Shown in pieces: positions 12,306 to 60,395 of a stretch of 64,000 nucleotides of DNA (the first letter of the stretch is position 1; each line of letters begins with the position of its first letter). Under the pieces are notes generated by a model. It saw only the letters and a list, made by a program, of their open reading frames with translations. It did no database searches and was not told the DNA's origin. Position numbers and translations under genes: made by a program. The stretch is from Desulfonatronum lacustre DSM 10312 (GTDB taxonomy: Bacteria; Desulfobacterota; Desulfovibrionia; Desulfovibrionales; Desulfonatronaceae): NCBI RefSeq assembly GCF_000519265.1, contig NZ_KI912608.1, forward strand, positions 1,483,582-1,547,581, read 5' to 3'.

Positions 12306-12517
12306 GTTATCCCATTTCCAATTCAAAGCTTCTCTTTCGGTATCAGAATCGAGGTCCGAATCGGGGTCGGCGTCGGTATCGGTATCGGTATCGGGATCGA
12401 TACTGTTTGTTCGCCAATAATTCTCATTCGATCCCGATTCGGATACCGATACCGACCCCGATATCTGCATTCTCTCAAGTAAATAACGCATTGCCCAAGT
12501 AGAACTGGCAGTACTTA
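12306..12517. repeat. Hexamer-array inverted repeat, copy B (MITE-like)
   Basis: Left arm about 12335-12402 is built of degenerate TATCGG/GTCGG units, right arm 12429-12464 of CCGATA/CCGATC units, around a 26-base loop holding GTTTGTTCGCCAATAAT. The outer flanks, beginning GTTATCCCATTTCCAATTC and ending near AAGTAGAACTGGCAGTACT, form an imperfect terminal inverted repeat. Both flanks are also present at copy F (30.27-30.45 kb), where the loop has the opposite orientation. The element reaches into the last bases of the neighbouring GNAT gene. Confidence 0.8.
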
Positions 12518-17378: not shown

Positions 17379-17475
17379 AATCGAAATCGGTATAGAAATC
17401 GAAATCGAAATCGAGAAGAACAAGCGCGTCATTGAATGACGGCGATACCGATTTCGATATCGATTTCGATCCCGG
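17379..17475. repeat. Hexamer-array inverted repeat, copy D
   Basis: Left arm 17379-17415 holds repeated ATCGAAATCG units, right arm 17443-17475 the complementary CGATTTCGAT units, with a 27-base loop. It lies in the 250-base divergent gap between the MoaE-like gene and the 872-residue membrane protein, leaving little room for separate promoters on each side. Confidence 0.8.
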
Positions 17476-20164: not shown

Positions 20165-20190
20165 CCCCTGACCGCGGTTACCTCATCAAA

Positions 20191-20280
20191 ATCCAAATCG
20201 CGATCGAAATCGAAATCGGAATTATGCTGTGCATCACCTTGTGATTACGATGTTCGATTACGATTTCGATTTCGATTCAG
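20191..20280. repeat. Hexamer-array inverted repeat, copy E
   Basis: Left arm 20191-20222 (ATCGAAATCGAAATCGG units) and right arm about 20246-20279 (CGATTTCGATTTCGATT units) are separated by about 23 bases. It begins some 27 bases after the stop of the 872-residue gene and lies upstream of pdxJ. It could fold as a long hairpin but lacks a terminator-type T run. Confidence 0.8.
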
Positions 20281-30271: not shown

Positions 30272-30449
30272 GTTATACCATTTCTAATTCAAAGCTTCTC
30301 TTTCGGTATCGGTATCGATATCGGCATCGGGGTCACATTAGGATTATTGGCGAACAAACTGTATCGATCCCGATCCCGATACCGACGCCGACCCCGATAA
30401 CTGCATTTCCAAGCGAAGAAAGCATTGCCGAAGTAGAATTGGTATTATT
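30272..30449. repeat. Hexamer-array inverted repeat, copy F (MITE-like)
   Basis: Left arm 30301-30335 (TATCGG units), loop with ATTATTGGCGAACAAAC, right arm about 30363-30399 (CCGATC/CCGATA units). The outer sequence GTTATACCATTTCTAATTC pairs imperfectly with GAATTGGTATTATT at the other end, giving terminal inverted repeats. The same flanks enclose copy B at 12.3-12.5 kb, but there the loop lies on the opposite strand. It separates betA from the binding-protein gene and reaches the last codons of betA. Confidence 0.8.
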
Positions 30450-32909: not shown

Positions 32910-33197
32910 TAAGCTGTCCTCCTGACAAGATTTGTCGGTGTCGAAAAGGCAAAACTGAACAAAATCAAGAATAAATCTCCAAAAGGCGCCACCAAATGGC
33001 CAGACCAATCTACATGCCAGCGTATGAATGTCAACCCCAAAAGAATCCGAAAACCTCGCTTGTCCATCAGCTCACAAGAGGCCGGACCGTGATCGGACTG
33101 GACCTGATTCCGGAATGTGATAAGAACAAACCCAAAAGCATTCGGCTTTCGCGAAACGCCAAACAGCGTGCTTGGCAAACATCAAGGAGGCAGCGTC

Positions 33198-33716
33198 ATG
33201 AACAAAGGTGACGGCGGATGGAGCCCGTATTTGGCCGGAGGGCTCAGCGGCCTGGTCGGGGTGATGTCGGTCTGGCTGGCCGGACAGTTTTTCGGTGCGT
33301 CCACGTCCTTCGTGCGCACGGCGGGGATGATCGAGCAATGGTTCAGTCCGGAGCGGGTCGGCCAGCTGGAGTACTTCATCCGGGTGGTCCCGCGCATCGA
33401 CTGGCAGTGGATGTTCGTGATCGGGATCGTCCTCGGCTCCCTGGTCTCGGCCTGGACTTCAGGATCGTTCCGCTGGCAGTCCGTTCCGGACATGTGGCGG
33501 GAACGCTTCGGCCACACCCCGGTCAAGCGGGCCGTGGTCGCCTTTTCCGGCGGCGTGGTGGCCATGTTCGGGGCCAGATTGGCTGACGGCTGACCCAGCG
33601 GTCATGGGTTGAGCGGTTCGCTTCAACTGGCTGTCAGCGGTTTTGTGGCTTTGGTCTGCTTTTTTATCGGCGGGATGATCATGGCCCGCATCGTCTATGG
33701 AGGTGGCAAGTCATGA
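33198..33716 (+). CDS. YeeE/YedE transporter, first half; probable selenoprotein with in-frame UGA
   Basis: A 172-residue membrane protein if the UGA at 33591-33593 is decoded. The frame up to the UGA gives 131 residues ending GGVVAMFGARLADG. After it the frame continues PSGHGLSGSLQLAVSGFVALVCFFIGG and ends at 33716, overlapping the next start as ATGA. YeeE/YedE proteins have a conserved G-C-x-S-G-H-G motif at this place, so UGA replaces the conserved Cys. A hairpin 33608-33627 with loop GGTTC begins 15 bases after the UGA (loop at 21) and fits a bacterial SECIS. AAGGAGG precedes the ATG at 33198. The family carries thiosulfate-type sulfur and has been linked to selenium. Confidence 0.8.
33608..33627 (+). 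promoter_or_regulatory. Candidate bacterial SECIS hairpin
   Basis: The stem GTTGAGC (33608-33614) pairs with GCTTCAAC (33620-33627) with one bulged T, around the loop GGTTC (33615-33619). An outer CCAG/CTGG pair (33595-33598 with 33627-33630) could extend it but competes for C33627. The loop lies 21 bases after the UGA, within the usual 16-37 range, and starts with GG, as SelB-binding loops do. Folding was done by eye only. Confidence 0.6.
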
Positions 33717-34240
33717 ACATCCTGATCTACGGACTGATCACCGGTTTCCTGTTCGGCTTCCTGCTCCAGAAGGGCCGCGTGCTGCGCTATGACAAGCAGC
33801 TCGGCGCGCTGCGATTGATGGACATGACCATCGTCAAGTTCATGCTTTCCAGCGTGATCGTGGGCATGGTCGGGGTGTACCTGCTTCAGGATCTGGGAGT
33901 GGCCAAGCTCTCGGTCAAACCCCTGATGCTCGGACCGATCATCATCGGCGGCCTGCTTTTCGGACTGGGCTGGGGTCTGCTGGGTTACTGCCCGGGCACC
34001 TCCATGGGAGCCCTGGGCGAGGGGCGCTGGGACGCGCTGTGGGGTATTCTGGGGATGATCGTGGGCGGGGGACTCTTTGCCGAAGCCTATCCCTGGCTGC
34101 GCTCCACGGTCTATAACTGGGGCGACTACGGACGTCTGACCCTGCCGGAAATGCTCGGCGTCAATCACTGGCTGATCATTCCGGTATTCATCGTCGGCGC
34201 GATCTTGCTTTTTCGTTGGTTTGAACGCAAGGGGCTTTAG
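33713..34240 (+). CDS. YeeE/YedE transporter, second half
   Basis: A 175-residue membrane protein with about five hydrophobic segments. The GFLLQKGRVLRYDKQLGALRLMDMTIVKFMLSS opening and the FGLGWGLLGYCPGTSMGALGEG segment, with its conserved Cys, are typical of the C-terminal half of YeeE/YedE. In many bacteria the two halves are fused; here they are two overlapping genes (ATGA) and should form one transporter. The second conserved Cys is a normal Cys here, in contrast to the first half. A long imperfect hairpin without a T run follows at 34249-34292. Confidence 0.9.
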   Translation: MNILIYGLITGFLFGFLLQKGRVLRYDKQLGALRLMDMTIVKFMLSSVIVGMVGVYLLQDLGVAKLSVKPLMLGPIIIGGLLFGLGWGLLGYCPGTSMGALGEGRWDALWGILGMIVGGGLFAEAYPWLRSTVYNWGDYGRLTLPEMLGVNHWLIIPVFIVGAILLFRWFERKGL

Positions 34241-34364
34241 CCCTTTCCTTCCCTTCCGGGTGCGCCTCCCCAATTTTGCGCCCGGAAGGGAAAAGGGGTA
34301 GGCTCATGCTTCAACACGGCAGATCCCCTTCCACTCAACGTTCGCCCCATTCTTCCCAACACGC

Positions 34365-35426
34365 ATGACCCAATCCTACCACGCCCTGGCCCTCTACTCC
34401 GGAGGCCTGGACAGCATCCTGGCCATGAAGACCGTGCTCGACCAGGGACTGCGGGTCCTTGGCCTGCATTTCTGTTCCCCGTTTTTCGGCCATCCGGATA
34501 AAATCGAACATTGGCAACGCATTTATGGGCTGGAAATCCACCCCGTGGACGTGCACCAAACGTTTATCGACATTTTGCGCCAAGGCCCGCGCTTCGGCTA
34601 CGGCAAGGTGCTCAACCCCTGCGTGGACTGCAAGATCACCATGCTCTCCCATGCCAGGTCGTTGATGGACCAGTACGGCGCCCGGTTTCTGATCAGCGGC
34701 GAAGTCCTGGGCCAGCGGCCCATGTCCCAGCGCCGGGACACCTTGAACCTGATCAGCAAGCAGGCCGAGGTCCGCGACCTGTTGCTGCGTCCGCTTTGCG
34801 CCGGGCATATGCCCTCCACGCCCATGGAGGAGGAAGGCCTGGTGGACCGCACCCGGCTGCATTCCATTTCCGGCCGCGGACGCAAGGACCAGCTCCGTCT
34901 GGCCGAATCTTACGGACTGGCCGAAATCCCCACTCCGGCCGGCGGCTGCCTGCTGGCGGAACAGGAATCCGCCAAACGATTCTGGCCGGTCCTGACCCGC
35001 ATTCCCGAGCCGTCCCCGCACGACTTCGCCCTGGCCAACATGTCCCGGCAATACTGGAACGACGGACTTTGGATGATGGTCGGCCGCAACAAGTCGAATA
35101 ACGATGCCCTGGCGCGCATGGCCCAGGCCGAGGATCTGCTGTTCAAGACCGCGGACGTCCAAGGCCCCCTGGCCCTGGGCCGTCGCAAGCCGGGCATAAT
35201 CTGGACCGAGGAGGATATCCGCCGGGCCGCGACCTTCGTGGCCGGCTTCACCGCGAAAAAACGCCCCCCTGGACAAACTCCCCTGATTCGCGTCACCAGT
35301 TCCGGCCAATCCTCCACCCTGGAATGCCCCGCCGAATCCCCGTCCGAAACCGGCTGGGCGGAGTTCACCTGGGATCGGACCAAACGAGAAAAGCAGGACT
35401 GGATCGACGCCAATTCCCCGTCCTAA
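34365..35426 (+). CDS. PP-loop tRNA-thiolation-like protein with NFACT-R-like C-terminus
   Basis: A 353-residue protein. The N-terminal PP-loop ALYSGGLDSILAMK (residues 8-21) is the ATP pyrophosphatase site of ThiI/MnmA-like enzymes; NPCVDCKITML (about 83-93) supplies candidate catalytic Cys residues. The later segment WMMVGRNKSNNDALARMAQAEDLLFKTADVQGP (about 225-260) resembles the NFACT-R (DUF814) domain seen in RNA-binding proteins. Such ThiI-like fusions occur in sulfate reducers, and a tRNA is the probable substrate. It follows the YeeE pair by about 125 bases on the same strand, which suggests but does not prove a sulfur or selenium link. Confidence 0.75.
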   Translation: MTQSYHALALYSGGLDSILAMKTVLDQGLRVLGLHFCSPFFGHPDKIEHWQRIYGLEIHPVDVHQTFIDILRQGPRFGYGKVLNPCVDCKITMLSHARSLMDQYGARFLISGEVLGQRPMSQRRDTLNLISKQAEVRDLLLRPLCAGHMPSTPMEEEGLVDRTRLHSISGRGRKDQLRLAESYGLAEIPTPAGGCLLAEQESAKRFWPVLTRIPEPSPHDFALANMSRQYWNDGLWMMVGRNKSNNDALARMAQAEDLLFKTADVQGPLALGRRKPGIIWTEEDIRRAATFVAGFTAKKRPPGQTPLIRVTSSGQSSTLECPAESPSETGWAEFTWDRTKREKQDWIDANSPS

Positions 35427-36457: not shown

Positions 36458-36647
36458 TTCCTGGTATCTACTCAGCACATTTTGTATCCGCCCTTGCTCC
36501 GGCAATCGGAGTCGGGGTCGCTATCGGAATCGGAATCGGAACAGAAAAAATTTTGAACGCTTCCCAGCGTTTTCGATCCCGATCCCGATACCGATCCCGA
36601 CTCCGACCCCGACAACGGCATTACTCTATGCTGAATAGTTACAATTT
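36458..36647. repeat. Hexamer-array inverted repeat, copy G
   Basis: Left arm 36503-36541 (ATCGGA/GTCGGGG units), right arm 36574-36614 (CGATCC/CCGATA units) around a 32-base AT-rich loop. The outer flanks TACTCAGCA (about 36470-36478) and TGCTGAATAGT (36629-36639) form imperfect terminal inverted repeats. The right flank runs into the 3' end of hipA, supplying its last codons. It lies between two convergent genes. Confidence 0.75.
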
Positions 36648-37969
36648 CTGTTTCGAATGAACCTGTCCCGGGCGTGCAGCAGTCCGTTGAATATTGGTTC
36701 CGCCACACTGCTCGGGAAATCGGTTGGTACTTGCCGAGCAACACTTGCAATCACGCCATCCAGTCGTTGGAGTATTTCCGAGATGATTGCTTCCATCTCA
36801 TCCGTGGGAAAGTGGCAGGTTTTAGCTGTACTGATCCAATGCCTGTTCAGAATTTTGAACCAATGATACTGGCGATTTGCTCCGCGCACAGCCATGGCCA
36901 TTTTTATTTTGCGTTCCTCCAGATTCCGTTTCGCAAGACAGGGATACGCGGAAATGATGTCGTAGAGTGGAGTGAGGTGGTAAATCCCTCCCGTCTGAAT
37001 ATAAATGCTGAAATTTTTGGCATGCCCATCGATCGCGGCCAACAACCAGAAGAGGAAATTCGCCGTGAGGAATGTTTTTCTGTCCGCAAAACTTCTGGAT
37101 GATCCGAGGAGCAGCTTCATGATGTTTTCAATACCCGGCCCGCCGTCGCTTTCGTATTTGAGAGCTGGAGCGACGCCCAGCGCCTGACACATGTCCTCCT
37201 GAGGCAACCGGACGATCCAGGACTGATCCTCTGACGCCCTCCTGTCGAACCGTTTGATGACAAGAGCGTTTACGCCCGCAAACTGCCTCATGCTTGCTTC
37301 GGCAACCGGGAGCCCGAATTCCTTGATGATTTGATGGCAAAGCCATTCATTTTCCACACTGTCGGACAAGTCGATGTTTTGATGTTCGAGGCGGCCGATC
37401 GGCAGCTTCAGGATATGGGTGGTCGGAGTTGAGCCATGGGGACGATGCCATTTTCCATCGTGATGGAGCAACGCTGTTTTATCCTGCGCTCCAGCCAGTG
37501 ATATCCGGAAATCATCCTCGCCGGAAATGCCGAGCGGCATGATCCGGCTGTTGCTGAGTATCCCGGCTATCTGATCATCGGTGACAGGAGTGGCGTCAAT
37601 GTCATGGACTGGTGGAGGGTCTCTTTCGATCGGACAGAGTTGGACCGCACCGATACAGTCACGCCCGATATGCGACAGCAGATCAAAGCTGTTGTCCGAG
37701 GGAGTCTGGAATTTCCGTTGGAGATGACGCCTGACGGCCTGGTTGTCCGGGAGGAGATTGTCATAATAATTTTCCACCACTTCCCCGGAATACGGCTCTG
37801 CTCGCAACGGCATTGAAAGCGACAGGGGCCGTGCTGAATTTTCGCGCATCCAGTGTTCATGATAGGCAAATTCGAGCTTGCCGCTCGAATGACGCCTGAG
37901 CGTCCCCACCCGGAGACCATTCATCCAGACGGAGAGTTCCCTCGAAAGCTTGCGGCGCCCCATCACCAT
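36626..37969 (-). CDS. hipA: HipA-type serine/threonine kinase toxin
   Basis: A 447-residue protein. The N-terminal couple_hipA domain (LSVWMNGLRVGTLRR) is followed by the kinase core with the SLAGAQDKTALL glycine-rich loop, LPTTHILKLPI and the catalytic LLAAIDGHAKNFSIYI (H-x-D-variant and N) and LTPLYDIISA (metal-binding D). HipA toxins phosphorylate a glutamyl-tRNA synthetase or similar target and induce dormancy. The C-terminal residues RNRNCNYSA lie in the flank of hexamer array G, so the end may differ from the ancestor. A 140-base fragment of a second hipA copy is at 46.84-46.99 kb. Confidence 0.92.
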   Translation of the reverse strand: MVMGRRKLSRELSVWMNGLRVGTLRRHSSGKLEFAYHEHWMRENSARPLSLSMPLRAEPYSGEVVENYYDNLLPDNQAVRRHLQRKFQTPSDNSFDLLSHIGRDCIGAVQLCPIERDPPPVHDIDATPVTDDQIAGILSNSRIMPLGISGEDDFRISLAGAQDKTALLHHDGKWHRPHGSTPTTHILKLPIGRLEHQNIDLSDSVENEWLCHQIIKEFGLPVAEASMRQFAGVNALVIKRFDRRASEDQSWIVRLPQEDMCQALGVAPALKYESDGGPGIENIMKLLLGSSRSFADRKTFLTANFLFWLLAAIDGHAKNFSIYIQTGGIYHLTPLYDIISAYPCLAKRNLEERKIKMAMAVRGANRQYHWFKILNRHWISTAKTCHFPTDEMEAIISEILQRLDGVIASVARQVPTDFPSSVAEPIFNGLLHARDRFIRNRNCNYSA

Positions 37970-38205
37970 GCATCCTCATCCGGCTTTGCCCTCGGCTGAA
38001 TCACCAGCTCCAGATCGAGGGCTGCAAGAAGTCGAAAAAGCGTATCCACCCTGGTCGGAATTCCTCGTTCGATGCTCGACACGGTGACTTGATTCACGCC
38101 CGCCGGTTTCCCGGCTTCAGTCTGGTTCAGCCCCTTGCCCTTGCGCAGGGCTCTGAGCGATGCTCCAAGAGACTCTGCCGAGGTGACCTTGATTCGTGTT
38201 TGCAT
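37963..38205 (-). CDS. hipB: HipB-type antitoxin, XRE helix-turn-helix
   Basis: An 80-residue DNA-binding protein. The helix-turn-helix is visible as LGASLRALRKGKGLNQTEAGKPAGVNQVTVSSIERG (about residues 13-48), and the C-terminus LFRLLAALDLELVIQPR is typical of HipB. It should bind HipA and repress the operon. The start at 38205 is the ATG just before the conserved region, since the upstream frame (to 38550) is AT-rich and lacks motifs. It overlaps hipA by seven bases, upstream as expected for the pair. Confidence 0.9.
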   Translation of the reverse strand: MQTRIKVTSAESLGASLRALRKGKGLNQTEAGKPAGVNQVTVSSIERGIPTRVDTLFRLLAALDLELVIQPRAKPDEDAW

Positions 38206-38543
38206 GGCTGTTGAATAGTGTTTCAAGTTATAAATAAAATTTATTCTTTTTTTGATATAAATATAAAATATTGTCAATGCTGTTAAGAAATGAAGTGGAG
38301 ATCCGTTGGATCCGGAGCAGGCCCGTCCCGGCGTGCACCGCCCGCGACCCGCAGCGAAGGATTTGGCACGTGGACGCCCTGAAACTGGAGGACTTGGCTC
38401 CTCCGGCAGGAAGCGTGAGGCAAAATCCAGAAAGGCGACTCCCGTGATAAGAACGGTGGCGAGCCTTAGAGCGATGATTTTTTGACTCGAGGGTGATCCC
38501 AAGGGGTGATGGCACCTCAACAAGTACGGGTGGGAAATCACGC
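38206..38543. other. Gene-free stretch upstream of hipBA
   Basis: The first 80 bases are AT-rich (TATAAATAAAATTTATTC) and probably hold the hipBA promoter with HipB operators. The rest is GC-rich with no credible frame. It ends at the first copy of the 142-base direct repeat. Confidence 0.5.
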
Positions 38544-38685
38544 CCCGCAACAGGAGAGGGTATCATTGATCAAGCAGGAGGCCGGTTGTGCGGCCTCCTG
38601 CTGTTGTTTCGACGCGTTCCGCGCGGGTTGGCTATTTGCGGAGCTGTTCAAACAGGGCCGCGGCTTCGGCAGGCGGTCTTTGCTC
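38544..38685. repeat. 142-bp direct repeat, left copy
   Basis: Identical to 42687-42828 apart from one base (GGCAGGCGG versus GGCAGGAGG). It includes the palindrome AGCAGGAGGCCG/CGGCCTCCTGCT and the last 18 codons of the DUF2087-type gene, of which this copy is a headless 3' remnant. It bounds a 4.0-kb segment; its last two bases lie inside the stop codon of the aminotransferase gene. Confidence 0.92.
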
Positions 38686-43308: not shown

Positions 43309-43850
43309 GACATCCTCGCTGACGCGCCTTGCTCAACGTCTTGAGTGCCGGTGGTCGCCGACTTCCGACTCGGCGCGCTGCATAGGTGTCGAGTTTTTGG
43401 AAGGATGGATGGCGGGTTTAGCTCCCCAAAAGGGGCGGCGACGCCTGGGTGAACCGCCGACCAGTGGGGAGAAGTACACCCATCCACCATGCCACGCAAG
43501 AGCAGGGCCGAACAGGCAATCATATGGGACGATGCCGCCGACGAAGCTCTTGATATGTACTTCAAACGTCGCAACTCCTGATAGACGAACGTTTCCAGAA
43601 TCCTCCCGAACAGTGAACGGTCCGCCCACAGCGCATCCCCGCTCAAACCCAGCAGTGCGCAGGACAGGCCCAACTTGTCGTCTGATTGTCGATATCCTCA
43701 TTGGTGGCTATGAATGGGCAACGAAGGGGAGTGTGACCTTACTGCAGAGCCTTTCTCATCATCGAGTTCGAATCAAGTTGACATGGATATGACTCAGAGT
43801 ACATCAAGCCGAAAAGGGATTGATCCTCACATGCGACAAACACGAGGAAT
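43309..43850. other. Degenerate region with gene fragments
   Basis: No intact gene. On the minus strand at 43560-43676 a DUF4143 fragment is recognisable (listed separately). A 30-codon plus-strand frame at 43489-43581 begins MPRKSRAEQAIIW; it has no known match and may be the head of a lost gene. Confidence 0.55.
43560..43676 (-). pseudogene. Fragment of a DUF4143-type ATPase C-terminal domain
   Basis: The translation GLSCALLGLSGDALWADRSLFGRILETFVYQELRRL matches the DUF4143 signature (DtGLa..LLG...L....fG.llE.fVy.EL) of AAA ATPases like the intact one at 45.7-46.8 kb. Neither the preceding ATPase part nor the following nuclease-like part continues in frame, so it is a remnant of a different copy. 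Confidence 0.7.
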
Positions 43851-58154: not shown

Positions 58155-58856
58155 TCATGACACGGGGTCACCTTGTTTGAGGAATACCATGGCTTGGCGG
58201 GCGGCATTCTGCTCGGCCTTTTTGACGCTGCTGCCCGAATCCCGAAACTCCTCGCCAGTGGGCAATTTAAGCAGGATATGAAACGTTCGCTCGTGCTCCG
58301 GCCCTGAACTTCCCTCCAAAACATATACCGGACGGTCCCGGCAATGTTGCTGGGTCAACTCTTGGAGCTTCGTCTTGTGATCCTTTTCCACGGGCAATTC
58401 CATCTGCCTGGGCCACAGTCCGACGAACCGCTCCAGAGCCCACTGCTTGGCCACCGCATATCCCCCATCCAGAAAAATCGCTCCAAGAAGCGCCTCAAAG
58501 GCGTCGCTGAGCAGCGATTGACGCTGTCGCCCTCCCTGGTTCTCTTCACCATGCCCCAGCAAAAGGACTCGGTCGATCTTCAGCTTCCGGCTCAACCCCG
58601 CTAAAACACCTTCATTCACCAGCATGGCCCGGAACGTAGTCAACTGGCCCTCGTTGGCCTCCGGATAGCGAACATACAATTCCTCGGTAATGCTCAGCTC
58701 CAGAACCGCGTCCCCCAGAAATTCCAGACGCTCGTTGCTCTGGCCTCTTCCGGGCGACTCGTTTGCATAAGAACTGTGCGTCAGGGCCTCGTTCAATAAT
58801 TTGACATCACCAAACGCATACCGAATACGCGCCTGCACCTGCTCAATGTCATCCAT
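58155..58856 (-). CDS. rnc: Ribonuclease III
   Basis: A 233-residue double-strand RNase. The signature NERLEFLGDAVLELSI (catalytic Glu and Asp) is near residues 40-55, DAFEALLGAIFLDGG with the second acidic pair near 120-135, and the C-terminal dsRNA-binding domain KTKLQELTQQHCRDRPVYVLEGSSGPEHERTFHILLK to SSVKKAEQNAARQAMVFL. It processes rRNA precursors. The ATG at 58856 has GAGAGG five bases upstream; a GTG at 58862 is an alternative. Confidence 0.96.
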   Translation of the reverse strand: MDDIEQVQARIRYAFGDVKLLNEALTHSSYANESPGRGQSNERLEFLGDAVLELSITEELYVRYPEANEGQLTTFRAMLVNEGVLAGLSRKLKIDRVLLLGHGEENQGGRQRQSLLSDAFEALLGAIFLDGGYAVAKQWALERFVGLWPRQMELPVEKDHKTKLQELTQQHCRDRPVYVLEGSSGPEHERTFHILLKLPTGEEFRDSGSSVKKAEQNAARQAMVFLKQGDPVS

Positions 58857-59330
<474 letters not shown>

Positions 59331-60395
59331 ATGGTCGGTATTTATGTGGGCTCGACGTCAGGCTATTCAGGAAAAAACCTGATAGCCATGGGGCTTGGTC
59401 TCAAATTTCAAAAAGACGGCCTGAACGTCGGCTACATCAAGCCTGTGGGCGCCGTACCCGTGGAAAAAGACGGCAAAATGGGAGACGAAGACGCGTTCTT
59501 TGTTCAGGACGTGCTGGGACTGAAGGAAGACCCCGAAGTCGTCACCCCCGTACTGGTCACCGAGGAGTTCAAGACCAAGGCCTTCGGCGGCCTGACCCAC
59601 GACCTGATGGGCGACATCAAACGCAGCTACGAAGCCGTCAGCAAGGGCAAGGACGTAACCATCGTCGCCGGCTCCGGGAGCATGTATTCCGGCAAATACT
59701 GCAACGTGGACGCCGTGGAAGTCGTACGCACCCTGGGCATCAAATCCATCGTCATCGACCGCTGCTCCAAGGAACTGAACTACGACTACCTGGTGGTGCT
59801 CAAGGACGCCCTGGGCGATCAATTTATCGGAACGATTCTCAACGACATTCCCGCGGACTACATGGACGAGGTCAAAAACCGGCTGACGCCTTTCCTGGAA
59901 CGCAGCGGAGTGAAGGTCCTCGGCATTTTGCCCCGGGATCCGCTGCTCGGCGCGGTCCAGGTGGGCGAACTGGCCCAACGGCTCGGTGGACGAGTGGTCA
60001 CGGCCAAGGACAAGGCCGACCGCGTCGTGGAGAATTTCCTGATCGGCAGTATGCAGGTCGAAAACTTCATGACCCACTTCCGCAAGAACAAAAACACCGC
60101 CATCATCATGGGCGGCGACCGCTCCGACGTTCAGTTGGTGGCCCTGGAAGGGGAATGCCCGTGTCTGATCCTGACCGGGAACATCTATCCCAACGATATC
60201 ATCCTGACCCGGGCCGAGGTCAAGGGAATCCCGATCATCATCGTCCGCGACGACACCTTCACCATGTCCAAGAAGATGGACGCCATTCTCTCCCGCCTGA
60301 AACTGCGCGACTTGGTCAAAATCCAGCAAGGCGCCCAGGTGGTCAGCAACAACGTGGACATCCCCTACATCAAGGAACAACTCGGATTGAAATAG
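59331..60395 (+). CDS. BioD-like/DRTGG-domain protein (phosphotransacetylase N-terminal type)
   Basis: A 354-residue protein. The N-terminal domain is P-loop-like (GIYVGSTSGYSGKNLIAMGLGLKFQKDGLNVGYIKPVG), as in the BioD-like domain of long phosphotransacetylases, with the acidic GDEDAFFVQDVLGL. The C-terminal third is a DRTGG domain (GGRVVTAKDKADRVVENFLIGSMQVENFMTHF). The catalytic Pta domain itself is absent, so this is a stand-alone sensory or regulatory part. Related proteins occur in sulfate reducers near pta-ackA. AAGGAGG is placed properly before 59331. A terminator follows at 60416. Confidence 0.82.
   Translation: MVGIYVGSTSGYSGKNLIAMGLGLKFQKDGLNVGYIKPVGAVPVEKDGKMGDEDAFFVQDVLGLKEDPEVVTPVLVTEEFKTKAFGGLTHDLMGDIKRSYEAVSKGKDVTIVAGSGSMYSGKYCNVDAVEVVRTLGIKSIVIDRCSKELNYDYLVVLKDALGDQFIGTILNDIPADYMDEVKNRLTPFLERSGVKVLGILPRDPLLGAVQVGELAQRLGGRVVTAKDKADRVVENFLIGSMQVENFMTHFRKNKNTAIIMGGDRSDVQLVALEGECPCLILTGNIYPNDIILTRAEVKGIPIIIVRDDTFTMSKKMDAILSRLKLRDLVKIQQGAQVVSNNVDIPYIKEQLGLK

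Follow-up and report, generated by a model that had tools for sequence, protein, structure and literature searches.

Gene organization of the locus

The window, by which we mean the whole 64-kb stretch of DNA analysed here, comes from the genome of Desulfonatronum lacustre DSM 10312, which is assembled as a single contig of 3.76 Mb. Two overlapping genes lie on its forward strand at 33198-33716 and 33713-34240. The first begins with ATG 33198-33200 and is preceded, 7 bases upstream, by AAGGAGG (33184-33190), a putative ribosome-binding site by its consensus. The reading frame of this gene is interrupted only once, by an in-frame TGA at 33591-33593 (codon 132 counting Met, 131 in the P0002 numbering). 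Past this codon the frame reads PSGHGLSGSLQLAVSGFVALVCFFIGGMIMARIVYGGGKS to the TGA at 33714-33716, giving a product of 172 aa including residue 132. This terminal stop overlaps the ATG at 33713 of the second gene, which encodes 175 aa. The product of reading through the in-frame TGA matched PF04143 over residues 5-160, a match that spans the TGA (E=2.3e-21), and the second gene product matched the same family (E=7.2e-15). Scores of 77.1 bits for the first gene and 55.8 bits for the second exceeded the PF04143 gathering cut-off of 27 bits. The gene pair very probably encodes a split YeeE/YedE-type membrane transporter. The preliminary description of this DNA had placed an in-frame UGA within a YeeE/YedE gene whose frame resumes without a shift and ends in an ATGA overlap with the second half, and this layout proved exact. 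It had also called the first gene the first YeeE half, which is correct by gene order, whereas at the protein level its counterpart is the C-terminal half of YeeE in its single-chain form.

A scan of a species-level genome collection identified 80 homologous loci with 62-98% identity, and the closest relatives as judged by this locus were Desulfonatronum bins. Among plasmid records only distant relatives were found, at less than 60% identity. The second half was found immediately 3' of the first in 79 of the 80 loci, and the remaining locus was cut by a contig end. Besides the second half no conserved neighbours were found across the homologous loci, and gene neighbourhood was therefore rejected as a guide to the substrate.

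Downstream of the pair, a very stable hairpin on the forward strand at 34240-34300 (-39.2 kcal/mol, z = -4.8) separates the transporter genes from a gene with ThiI-like and NFACT-R_2 domains at 34365-35426. The hairpin is possibly a transcript end, although it has no U run and the terminator scan made no call there. The ThiI-like gene was considered as part of the system and rejected, as it adjoins the pair only in a near-identical locus (L017). The host genome carries a second split YeeE pair of the Cys type (L101, G000:C1:1203909-1204391; 39% identity), which adjoins a double rhodanese protein.

The in-frame UGA alternates only with cysteine codons

To evaluate the in-frame TGA we compared the site across the 80 homologues. 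The codon was TGA in 59, TGC in 14 and TGT in 7, with no other codon seen, and all 80 sequences aligned through it in a single frame. No further in-frame stop was present in the Sec half of any of them. The TGA form was found in homologues from several phyla and was the majority form among near relatives (59/80). It was also present in an independent bin (L017) that is 98% identical to the D. lacustre sequence. The relatives thus do not all carry true stops, and the UGA/UGC alternation that the preliminary description had proposed looking for was evident (59 TGA vs 21 TGC or TGT). A tree was built from both halves after removing the Sec/Cys column, and it implied at least 11 switches between Sec and Cys, 5 of which were forced by well-supported (starred) branches. 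The protein-coding frame was under constraint beyond the TGA, with dN well below dS 3' of the codon and also 3' of the hairpin described below, as can be seen in L018 (dN 0.14 vs dS 0.82) and L032 (dN 0.09 vs dS 0.78).

A stem-loop behind the UGA is conserved in TGA genes

A SECIS-like stem-loop lies within the coding region at 33607-33628 on the forward strand. The stem pairs GGUUGAGC with GCU(U)CAACU, with one bulged base, and encloses the loop GGUUC at 33615-33619, which corresponds to bases 25-29 counting from the T of the TGA. This structure was present as previously described, and both its place immediately after the UGA and the G at the first loop positions match the bacterial SECIS pattern. 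In TGA genes the stem was paired in 96% of cells, and this fell to 16-47% when the partner strand was slid. Compensatory changes were seen in TGA genes at two pairs, GC/AU (8 cells) and CG/UA (18 cells). In Cys genes, pairing of the stem was 70%, not clearly above shuffles, and the loop was unconserved. Searching Rfam at gathering cut-offs returned no SECIS family match. The fold energy of the D. lacustre sequence taken by itself was no more stable than shuffles (z = -0.12), and single-sequence fold energy was dropped as evidence for a SECIS element in favor of covariation and codon constraint.

The codons of the loop region showed a pronounced difference between the two forms of the gene. In TGA genes Ser138 was encoded by AGC in 100%, Gly139 by GGT in 95% and Ser140 by TCG in 100% of sequences, whereas in Cys genes AGC was used in 81%, the commonest Gly codon was GGC at 43%, and TCG was used in 33%. 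Synonymous codons frozen in the TGA genes only are a constraint on the RNA that is distinct from the constraint on the protein. We consider this codon contrast stronger evidence than the covariation, because the covariation is limited to two base pairs and most stem positions are invariant.

The genome encodes the selenocysteine machinery

The preliminary description had proposed a search for selA, selB, selC and selD, the set of genes expected in a bacterium that makes selenoproteins, and all four were found. The genome carries tRNA-Sec (selC) together with SelB (366 bits), SelA (611 bits) and SelD (333 bits). The host selD (L098, G000:C1:15288-16199) likewise contains an in-frame TGA, close to the N-terminal end of its product (...SAAGUASKISPGD...), and is itself a selenoprotein gene, with the TGA at what is presumably the N-terminal place where SelD selenoproteins have Sec. 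Among the homologue genomes, selA was found in 27 of the 29 TGA genomes tested, once as a fragment, as compared to 12 of 21 genomes with the Cys form (Fisher p = 0.004). Many of the genomes compared are metagenome bins of incomplete sequence, and the machinery is also frequent in Cys genomes. No real selA match was found in the TGA genomes L069 and L082, both of which are metagenome bins that may be incomplete. This distribution supports Sec decoding but falls short of proof. Taken with the codon alternation, UGA 33591-33593 almost certainly encodes selenocysteine, a reading that is as firm as sequence comparison allows.

The two genes resemble the split PmpA/PmpB transporters and are remote homologues of TsuA

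Homology of the pair to the thiosulfate transporter TsuA was remote, at about 30 bits. The Sec half aligned with residues 236-328 of Spirochaeta thermophila TsuA (StTsuA; 6LEO/6LEP), and this alignment placed Sec132, within the motif DGUPSGHG, on Cys293. The N-terminal half aligned with residues 4-176 of 6LEO, and its Cys93, within YCPGTSMG, matched Cys91 of StTsuA. In StTsuA, Cys293 is described as the first cysteine along the path and Cys91 as the second (PMC11073785), and both are described as indispensable (PMC11582611). The proposal that the UGA stands on the conserved YeeE cysteine therefore agrees with both the alignment to Cys293 and the codon alternation. Cys93 was kept in all 77 loci covering the position and was never encoded by TGA. 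All relatives had L, I or V where StTsuA has its third cysteine, Cys22.

The homology to StTsuA/YeeE (6LEO, 8J4C, 8K1R; PMC11073785) extends over both halves and the Cys293 and Cys91 positions are kept, but StTsuA is a single chain of nine helices with a third cysteine (Cys22) and a partner, YeeD (TsuB). The Desulfonatronum pair is split, has the reverse gene order and has no adjoining TsuB gene. Assignment to the TsuA thiosulfate transporter equivalog was rejected, as the two proteins scored 48.5 and 52.5 bits against an NCBIfam cut-off of 400 and lack Cys22. The selenium-associated transporters YedE/FdhT (NF033796) and TIGR04112 belong to the same superfamily, and membership in seleno_YedE was likewise rejected with scores far below the curated cut-offs (26.7 of 200 bits for TIGR04112 and 34.4 of 350 bits for NF033796).

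The pair has the same layout as PmpA and PmpB, which are separate C- and N-terminal halves carrying these two cysteines and for which a heterodimer has been proposed (PMC11582611). As in that system, two genes encode the transporter, a PmpA-like C-terminal half with the Cys293 position and a PmpB-like N-terminal half with the Cys91 position and no Cys22. The halves are about 130 aa in PmpA/PmpB as compared to 172 and 175 aa here, and here Sec replaces the PmpA cysteine. With two genes, the C- and N-terminal halves, and Cys or Sec at positions 293 and 91, the pair is of the PmpA/PmpB type. An AlphaFold model of the Sec half (28 sequences) was of low confidence (mean pLDDT 57.1, pTM 0.35) and no conclusions were based on it.

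Other features of the window

Several further features were recorded elsewhere in the window. Degenerate 6-base repeats of the TCGGTA/CGATCC type occur at 30303-30398 and 36504-36612, with similar hexamer arrays at 12337-12399, 17379-17474 and 20185-20277. These arrays lie mostly in facing pairs that fold into very long hairpins (for 36500-36616, -62.5 kcal/mol and z = -8.7), and they look like a dispersed repeat family of the genome. At 58976-59060 the 7-base unit CTGACTC is repeated 12 times in tandem without a mismatch, an array that is likely to vary in copy number; it is flanked by ORFs at 58155-58862 (minus strand, RNase III-like by eye) and 59205-60395 (plus strand, phosphotransacetylase-like by eye). 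On the minus strand, a gene for a HipA-like kinase and the HTH gene upstream of it (36626-38550) make up a HipBA-type toxin-antitoxin pair, and a COG3860 cis-regulatory RNA motif lies at 43410-43463 (Rfam match of 64.9 bits).

Discussion

The genes at 33198-33716 and 33713-34240 very probably encode the two halves of a YeeE/YedE membrane transporter of the split PmpA/PmpB type, in which the UGA at 33591 would be decoded as Sec by SelB and tRNA-Sec under the direction of the hairpin just 3'. Sec132 would then replace the first pore-lining cysteine of TsuA (Cys293), and the partner half would supply the second (Cys93, equivalent to Cys91) with the third (Cys22) missing. The Sec coding and the family are established by computation. 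We infer from there that the halves pair as a heterodimer, which may serve for the uptake of thiosulfate, polysulfide or other sulfane sulfur. A selenolate carries no proton at neutral pH and is highly polarisable, and that of Sec132 may make the first contact with the sulfane sulfur, a chemical role suggested by general Sec chemistry. Because no neighbour but the second half is conserved, the assignment of a substrate rests on the remote homology to TsuA. From this homology the substrate is rather likely to be a sulfur species, and uptake of one of the sulfane-sulfur compounds named above appears the likeliest role. The sulfur-related proteins beside some relatives and the double rhodanese beside the Cys-type pair of the host genome give this reading a sulfur context. 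Taken as a whole, this account of the two genes is highly plausible.

The Sec residue could instead be redox-active, with the pair reducing or relaying sulfane sulfur together with the nearby Cys154 of the Sec half and not passing whole thiosulfate ions. Of the 80 relatives, 70 have Cys154, which StTsuA lacks, and some neighbours are disulfide-reductase-like and rhodanese proteins: flavin disulfide reductases adjoin 7 homologous loci, and at one of the loci (L071) the neighbouring disulfide-reductase-type flavoprotein is fused to rhodanese. Cys154 is not invariant, however, and the Sec132-Cys154 distance is not derivable from the low-confidence model, so we regard a redox relay as possible but doubtful. 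A bolder form of the import reading, which seems to us rather unlikely, goes beyond a Cys transporter with an improved nucleophile: the Sec form would be a distinct and widespread class of sulfane-sulfur importers, holding the cargo at the outer gate in a covalent Se-S adduct.

Alternatively, the transporter could move selenium, as has been supposed for YedE/FdhT, with its Sec sensing or binding the element. YedE is listed as a possible Se-related transporter (PMC9312934). Relatives of YedE are tied to selenium metabolism and TIGR04112 gave a weak match to the second half. This match was far under the cut-off (27 vs 200 bits), the recurrent neighbours included no recognisable selD-like or yedF-like family, and Cys forms of the transporter exist in genomes without detected selA, making a selenium transporter improbable here.

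That TGA 33591-33593 is a true stop, marking a pseudogene, a sequencing error or two short proteins, is how standard gene finders would treat the gene and is compatible with its unexceptional single-sequence fold energy, but we give this very little credence given the same TGA in 59 homologues of several phyla including the independent L017, purifying selection on the frame 3' of it, alternation with Cys only and an RNA-level constraint confined to TGA genes. Readthrough of UGA is known in bacteria, and insertion of Trp or Arg by a near-cognate tRNA or an altered code is nonetheless scarcely credible here, as the same gene also ends in TGA, relatives have Cys but never Trp or Arg at the site, and the genome has all components of the Sec machinery together with another in-frame TGA, in selD.

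The preliminary description had presented this gene as a new type of selenoprotein for which no published description was known, and this is not upheld. Two reviews (PMC9312934, 2022; PMC13188914, 2026) already list a YeeE/YedE family selenoprotein with PF04143 and the example WP_012471001.1, and the 2026 table gives its motif as GUxSG. The protein described here shares PF04143, a single Sec and this motif, as GUPSG, with the catalogued YeeE/YedE thiosulfate transporter family selenoprotein, and it belongs to this already known kind. The catalogued protein occupies one table line in the reviews, and orthology with WP_012471001.1 is by family and motif only. Of the primary sources behind the table, PMC2398784 and PMC5029168 make no mention of YeeE in their main text. 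Several points appear to be additions: that the Sec form is split, that its Sec is equivalent to Cys293, that the SECIS stem covaries, and that Sec is in the majority in several phyla. None of them was found in the accessible texts, but the primary supplements may describe them.

Genes such as 33198-33716 are truncated by ordinary gene finders. Selenoproteins whose function is known are mostly redox enzymes, and it is unusual for Sec to occupy the place of a pore cysteine in a membrane transporter. As the family is already catalogued, the value of the finding lies in its details. Natural Sec and Cys versions of the same transporter allow comparison, and the Sec form could reveal if covalent binding of sulfur is part of how YeeE-type importers work.
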